DNA of 26,511 nucleotides from a virus: positions 1 through 26,511 of the IMG/VR virus record IMGVR_UViG_3300025536_000036; one strand, 5' to 3'. This document shows positions 12,308 to 12,760 of the stretch, one piece after another (the stretch's first letter is position 1; every line of letters begins with the position of its first letter). A model generated the notes under the pieces. That model saw nothing but the letters and a program-made list of their open reading frames with translations. It was not told where the DNA came from and made no database searches. Both the position numbers and the translations under genes were made by a program.

Positions 12308-12760
12308 TCAGAAAAACCTACCCTTCCTAATCTCTTCTCTGACCTCCATGAGTATTTCTCCAAGACGGTTTCTTCCTTTTCCGTCTCGTCCACATCCCCA
12401 ATACCAATCATATGGACTGTCCTCAACAATCAAGCAATCGCCAGAGGTCATGAGCAAATGATGAGGATGTGGATGTAATATCATTTTCCTCATCACTGCC
12501 AGAAACATGTAGTTATCTTTCAGCATGTCCCAATTCGGACGAAGAGTTATCTTGGTCCGACCGTACTCTGCTGCAAGTTTCGGAGTGGCCAGATTGCGAA
12601 TTGTTTCTCTACCGTTCTCGTTTTCTGTCTTCATGGCTTGATAGAAATGTTCTGTAGTAGGCCACTCCGGTCCGGTATCAAAACGTATTGGATAACGAGC
12701 GAAATTAGAGAAACATCCATATGCATCTCTGGTGTTGTAGAAGCGAATCACATCAGTCAT
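12308..12760 (-). CDS. NADAR (YbiA/DUF1768) family protein, likely ADP-ribosyl-guanine hydrolase
   Basis: 150 aa, full length for the family. Signature parts are visible: IRFYNT (5-10), CFSNF (16-20), WPTTEHFYQAMK (33-44), IVEDSPYDWYWGCG (111-124) and RDGKGRNRLG (125-134). NADAR proteins bind ADP-ribose groups. Members remove ADP-ribose from guanine in DNA, and phage NADAR proteins have been reported to counter the DarT toxin of DarTG defence. An older role of the family is in riboflavin pathway clean-up (YbiA). The ATG has AGGAGACAGGTA upstream and overlaps the DnaB-like gene by eight bases, so repair of modified DNA may be timed with replication. Family call is strong; anti-DarT activity here is inferred. 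Confidence 0.9.
   Translation of the reverse strand: MTDVIRFYNTRDAYGCFSNFARYPIRFDTGPEWPTTEHFYQAMKTENENGRETIRNLATPKLAAEYGRTKITLRPNWDMLKDNYMFLAVMRKMILHPHPHHLLMTSGDCLIVEDSPYDWYWGCGRDGKGRNRLGEILMEVREEIRKGRFF

Follow-up and report, generated by a model that had tools for sequence, protein, structure and literature searches.

A YbiA-type NADAR protein encoded by a phage that probably also carries the NAD+ pathway NARP1

The window, a whole virus record of 26,511 bases, contains an ordinary, well-preserved phage NADAR gene of the YbiA type, and we lean towards the reading that its product frees N-linked ADP-ribose, blunts a host defence based on ADP-ribose, and yields a product that could feed NARP1, a pathway for which this phage probably has the genes. 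What the sequence itself establishes is the NADAR fold, the set of active-site residues, membership in the YbiA subtype and the signature of the NARP1 enzyme Namat. On this reading, the stand-alone enzyme would hydrolyse an N-glycosidic bond that joins ADP-ribose to a nitrogen and would set ADP-ribose free; candidate targets are an ADP-ribosylated guanine of DNA or RNA and small-molecule conjugates of ADP-ribose. The phage may in this manner dampen a host defence that uses ADP-ribose either on nucleic acids or as a signal, and NARP1 (Adps and Namat) may turn the ADP-ribose released by NADAR back into NAD+. The features on which this account is built are collected in Table 1.

Table 1. Genes and elements of the window considered in this study.
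Feature	Position	Strand	Basis or remark
NAMPT-like gene, probable nicotinamide ADP-ribose transferase of NARP1	1515..2954	(-)	Namat selectivity-clamp motif GSYTYQYVTRD; phrog_448 E 3.6e-190
Ribose-phosphate pyrophosphokinase-like (Prs-like) gene, probable Adps of NARP1	2927..3709	(-)	phrog_619 E 8.4e-66
PLP-dependent enzyme	4107-4895	(-)	PALP 57 bits; in phage gene run
Ro60/Rsr-like gene	8507-10108	(-)	vWA_Ro60 193.9 bits, TROVE 135.8 bits; NCBIfam Rsr 496 bits, under cut-off 900
AAA ATPase	10667-12256	(-)	phrog_10440 E 1.3e-135
NADAR (YbiA-type) gene, 150 aa	12308..12760	(-)	predicted catalytic/ADP-ribose-binding residues E37, K44, R68, W77, E113, D118, W121
Overlap of DnaB-like gene and NADAR gene, 8 bases	12753..12760	(-)	ORF coordinates
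AGGAG ribosome-binding site of NADAR gene	12768..12772	(-)	within helicase 3' end, 7 bases before ATG
DnaB-like replicative helicase (468 aa), immediate upstream neighbour of NADAR	12753..14159	(-)	DnaB_C 44 bits; phrog_19 E 3.9e-51

The NADAR gene appears to be real and intact. The initial annotation had described it as complete, which was borne out by a full-length match to the Pfam NADAR family PF08719 (104.3 bits against a curated cut-off of 35.1 bits, E 1e-29, profile positions 2-163 of 163), with the domain spanning residues 7-145, and by the presence of its own ATG start and AGGAG motif. PHROG 1017 (E 5.5e-33) and the sequence of E. coli YbiA (PDB 2b3w, E 2.2e-35) were matched as well, and a six-frame search of the whole record revealed this NADAR as the only one. 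Its GC content of 43.9% is close to the 44.4% of the DnaB-like gene. The nearest bacterial NADARs came from three loci. An AlphaFold2 model, computed from a 15-sequence alignment for residues 2-150, reached a mean pLDDT of 95.0 and found its best solved relative in YbiA (2b3w; E 1.6e-14, TM 0.89/0.80), followed by the ADP-ribose-bound NADAR of P. nicotianae (8bau; E 2.7e-8), while the match to the DarT1-linked NADAR of G. lovleyi (8bat) was weak (E 0.017, TM 0.61/0.44). The score against the NCBIfam model for a NADAR family anti-phage protein (NF053876) was 61.5 bits, under the cut-off of 240, and PADLOC, applied to six window proteins, returned for NADAR only a weak match to the candidate family PDC-M42C (E 1.4e-5). 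Neither a promoter nor a terminator was found in a scan of positions 12100-12420.

We then compared the active site with that of the P. nicotianae enzyme, the residue roles of which are taken from PMC11543638; residue numbers correspond to the columns of alignment A2 plus one, since A2 lacks Met1. E37, K44, R68, W77, E113, D118 and W121 of the window protein are the counterparts of E43, K50, R79, W89, E125, D130 and W133, respectively, and both first-motif residues, E37 and K44, are invariant in all 15 rows of A2. The residue on the last strand serves as a criterion for NADAR classes, in that Glu denotes YbiA (PMC11543638, PMC11125620) and Asp the NADARs linked to DarT1 (PMC11543638), and a His is said to occupy this position in the phage gp30.3 class (PMC11125620). 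The window protein carries the Glu of the YbiA type (E113) at this position, and neither the Asp of the DarT1-linked (BC4488-type) proteins nor the His ascribed to the gp30.3 type. An N-terminal extension is likewise absent, as the domain begins at residue 7 of a protein of 150 aa. In E. coli C7, the DarT1-linked NADAR is reported to need K115 in vivo, the equivalent of K75 in P. nicotianae (PMC11543638). The alignment places Ala64 of the window protein at this DarT1-specific Lys position, where E. coli YbiA also has Ala and many phage relatives of the window NADAR keep a Lys. Moreover, no DarT adjoins the gene, whose neighbours are the DnaB-like and AAA genes. Judged by its residues and its model, the window NADAR belongs to the YbiA subfamily and not to the DarT1 antitoxins; membership in the DarT1-linked group was rejected on residues, fold and neighbours.

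As reported in PMC11125620, four NADARs from E. coli and phage (DarT1-linked, sigma70-linked, YbiA and T4) all hydrolysed guanosine-ADPr in vitro, and thymidine-ADPr was hydrolysed by none of the four. Guanosine-ADPr in RNA is described as a further NADAR substrate (PMC11833690), and a myxobacterial YbiA neutralised its own ART toxin, YarT (PMC11125620). Given this activity of its relatives and the catalytic residues that it has kept, de-ADP-ribosylation is a fair prediction for the window NADAR, the hydrolase activity being assigned by analogy with the published enzymes. The interpretation first attached to this gene thus holds in part: a NADAR with the residues of a guanine-ADP-ribose hydrolase is retained, and de-ADP-ribosylation stands as a prediction from the conserved residues, while the protection against DarT and the coupling to the helicase that it also proposed find no favour in the analyses described below.

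The fate of the released ADP-ribose may be connected to two other genes of the window, at 1515-3709, to which the initial annotation made no reference. The Prs-like and NAMPT-like genes overlap by 28 bases, and the Namat signature GSXPhiXPhiXPhiTRD, with aromatic X (PMC12774641), is present in the window NAMPT-like protein as GSYTYQYVTRD. The nearest solved chains, 9w5w and 9w5x, share this form of the motif (GSFTYQYNTRD), and 9w5w matched the window protein with E 1e-145, compared with about 1e-70 for canonical NAMPT chains. By motif and nearest matches, this protein fits Namat better than NAMPT. In a comparison set of 85 Namat loci (L020-L104), the strict aromatic form was observed in 78, the other seven deviating at one position, and 80 of the loci possess a Prs-like ORF that is encoded on the strand of the Namat gene, no more than 3 kb from it. 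Of the five loci without such an ORF, four have the Namat ORF at the beginning of the available DNA or close to it. NARP1, composed of Adps and Namat, makes NAD+ from ADP-ribose and nicotinamide. By the Namat motif together with the adjoining Prs-like gene, the window phage very probably encodes NARP1, so that ADP-ribose released by NADAR could return to NAD+.

We were curious to know whether NADAR and Namat genes occur together beyond the window, where they lie approximately 9.4 kb apart. Of the Namat contigs, 70 measured at least 25 kb, and eight of these carried a NADAR (the remaining 15 of the 85 loci, on shorter contigs, had been dropped beforehand), compared with none of 73 random contigs of the same minimum length, which were sampled by two arbitrary 14-mers (33 of 75 loci for one, and 40 of 80 among the matches listed for the other). 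Fisher's test gave p 0.0027, and p 0.010 after stratification by size. The Namat contigs do not represent independent samples, and the three coarse size classes leave a bias of lifestyle. The median length was 59 kb for the Namat contigs and 46 kb for the random ones, and both NADAR and Namat genes favour large phages. Of the eight contigs, one has the two genes 1.3 kb apart; in two others the gap is about 6 and 12 kb, respectively, and in the remaining five it is at least 20 kb. Seven of the eight NADARs carry the last-strand Glu, the eighth (L132) falling outside the alignment at this position. The latter is a NADAR-like segment (record G064, 6628-6999) within an open reading frame roughly 2,400 codons long on a Namat contig, possibly part of a polyvalent protein. 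In the reverse direction, a NAMPT-family gene (phrog_448) was detected in two of the 18 viral records whose NADARs are most similar to that of the window and in none of 33 random contigs, the first 33 of the control set, and the Namat motif was absent from both of these NAMPT-family genes. We therefore regard the NADAR-NARP1 link as suggestive. Among the PMC papers listed for at least two of NADAR, Thoeris and NARP1, none treats NADAR together with NARP1. The stronger proposal, that the two form a loose two-stage anti-immunity pathway in which N-linked ADP-ribose is stripped from host adducts or a signal and then remade into NAD+, is speculative and in our estimate rather unlikely; if true, a single phage would undo ADP-ribosylation and refund the NAD+ spent, and NADAR would be the counterpart of RyDEP.

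Among the alternatives, the one that fares best is that NADAR, rather than acting on a nucleic-acid adduct, degrades a soluble immune signal or toxin of the host based on ADP-ribose, for instance an N-linked ADPR conjugate from a TIR protein, which we consider possible, if on the unlikely side. Iyer et al. (2022; PMC9503650) arrived at this proposal for phage NADARs by considering their gene neighbourhoods, describing such genes near NadV and NadM genes and favouring soluble ADPR derivatives as targets. RyDEP offers a parallel, being a glycosidase inserted in a NARP1 operon that breaks down cADPR signals and supplies NARP1 (PMC13232231), and the minimal YbiA core is without the putative DNA groove ascribed to DarT1-linked NADARs (PMC11543638). 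However, the bonds cut by RyDEP are O-glycosidic and the enzyme does not belong to the NADARs (PMC13232231), and within the portions of the literature examined, no NADAR was shown to cut such a signal.

The initial annotation had favoured another explanation, namely an anti-DarT1 repair enzyme that is made together with the replicative helicase and cleans ADP-ribosylated template at the fork. DarT1-linked NADARs do act as antitoxins (PMC11543638), T4 gene 30.3 is located close to the DNA ligase gene 30, and the 8-base overlap by which the window NADAR follows the DnaB-like gene proved exact. Nevertheless, overlaps occur in 13 of the 21 neighbouring gene pairs listed for the leftward run, and the DnaB-like gene overlaps its own upstream neighbour by eight bases too. 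We searched for DnaB_C in 26 viral records with a NADAR, that is, the 18 closest-NADAR records and the eight Namat-contig co-occurrences; 15 gave a match with an E value of 0.001 or lower, 11 of them scoring above the cut-off of the profile, and in none of these 15 is NADAR located next to DnaB, the nearest case being 1.8 kb away (L122). A homologue of the window helicase was found on the same strand at a distance of 1.8 to 6.4 kb in three of the 18 records, which points to loose clustering with replication genes and not to pairing. The viral contigs searched yielded no close relative of either the DnaB-like gene or the terminase gene. A specific NADAR-helicase pairing was rejected on the absent adjacency and the frequency of overlaps, and a coupling of repair to the fork helicase is not supported.

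The DarT side of this explanation is not supported either. The claim that phage versions can protect against DarT finds no support in PMC11125620, in which E. coli YbiA and phage T4 gp30.3 failed to rescue E. coli from DarT1, as far as one phage NADAR and one DarT1 can tell. AdfB, the anti-DarT factor of phage ICP1, acts through its binding to DarT, and the description of it examined in PMC11481870 does not call it a NADAR. The window protein itself is of the YbiA subtype, without the Asp and the N-terminal extension of the DarT1-linked group and with Ala64 in place of the Lys needed in vivo. Protection specifically against DarT1 is consequently not favoured for this NADAR, and the combined explanation of anti-DarT1 repair at the fork seems improbable to us. 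A damage-control N-glycosidase for intermediates of the riboflavin pathway, as proposed for E. coli YbiA, is less credible still, because despite the score for TIGR02464 (riboflavin intermediates N-glycosidase; 112.6 bits, above the cut-off of 73.7) and YbiA being the closest solved structure, a phage has no evident need for it and no riboflavin enzyme was seen among the window proteins scanned, a subset of the ORFs.

Some other elements of the window deserve mention. The AAA ATPase gene has a GC content of 61%, compared with 44% in the adjoining NADAR and helicase genes, so that the composition changes sharply at the end of the NADAR gene. Between the AAA ATPase gene and the Ro60/Rsr gene lie four Y-RNA-like elements (10187-10605, minus strand), whose core GGGCCGAAN{5,12}GGRTTATC is located at 10583-10605, 10443-10465, 10261-10283 and 10187-10209, with none expected in 100 shuffles. 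The elements share a consensus fold with two-sided changes in five of 14 pairs, and positions 10542-10609 gave a sub-threshold Rfam match to the nematode sRNA family ceN72-3, which we take to be a Y-RNA-like family. The phage may thus possess an Rsr with its own array of Y RNAs.

The role of phage NADARs outside DarT systems is a question left by PMC11125620 and PMC11543638, and the window phage provides a concrete case, as it combines a YbiA-type NADAR with the apparent ability to remake NAD+ from the predicted product of this enzyme. If both steps cooperate, this would supply a reason for phages to carry YbiA-type NADARs outside DarT systems; if they do not, the gene is one more phage NADAR. 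The part worth testing is the link of NADAR to the phage's own pathway from ADP-ribose to NAD+.

Compared with known systems, the window resembles NARP1, with or without RyDEP, in the Namat motif and the neighbouring Prs-like gene, but its NADAR is situated outside the pair, 9.4 kb away, and RyDEP is a glycosidase unrelated to NADAR. The DarT1-linked NADARs (BC4488 family; G. lovleyi 8bat, E. coli C7) have the NADAR superfamily and the catalytic Glu and Lys pair in common with the window protein, which differs from them in lacking the Asp, the N-terminal extension and a DarT neighbour and in its weak structural match. Phage T4 gp30.3 is likewise a phage NADAR near replication genes, and its first-motif Glu and Lys align with those of the window protein, but the identity is only 26% and the annotated T4 ORF of 152 aa, compared with the 208 residues cloned in PMC11125620, leaves the C-terminal part unaligned. 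With E. coli YbiA (2b3w), the window protein shares the fold (TM 0.89/0.80, with 44% of residues identical in the structural alignment), the catalytic Glu, the lack of an extension and the Ala at the DarT1-specific Lys position, whereas the host gene ybiA belongs to a LexA-controlled operon with dinG (PMC11125620) and the window gene to a run of phage replication genes.
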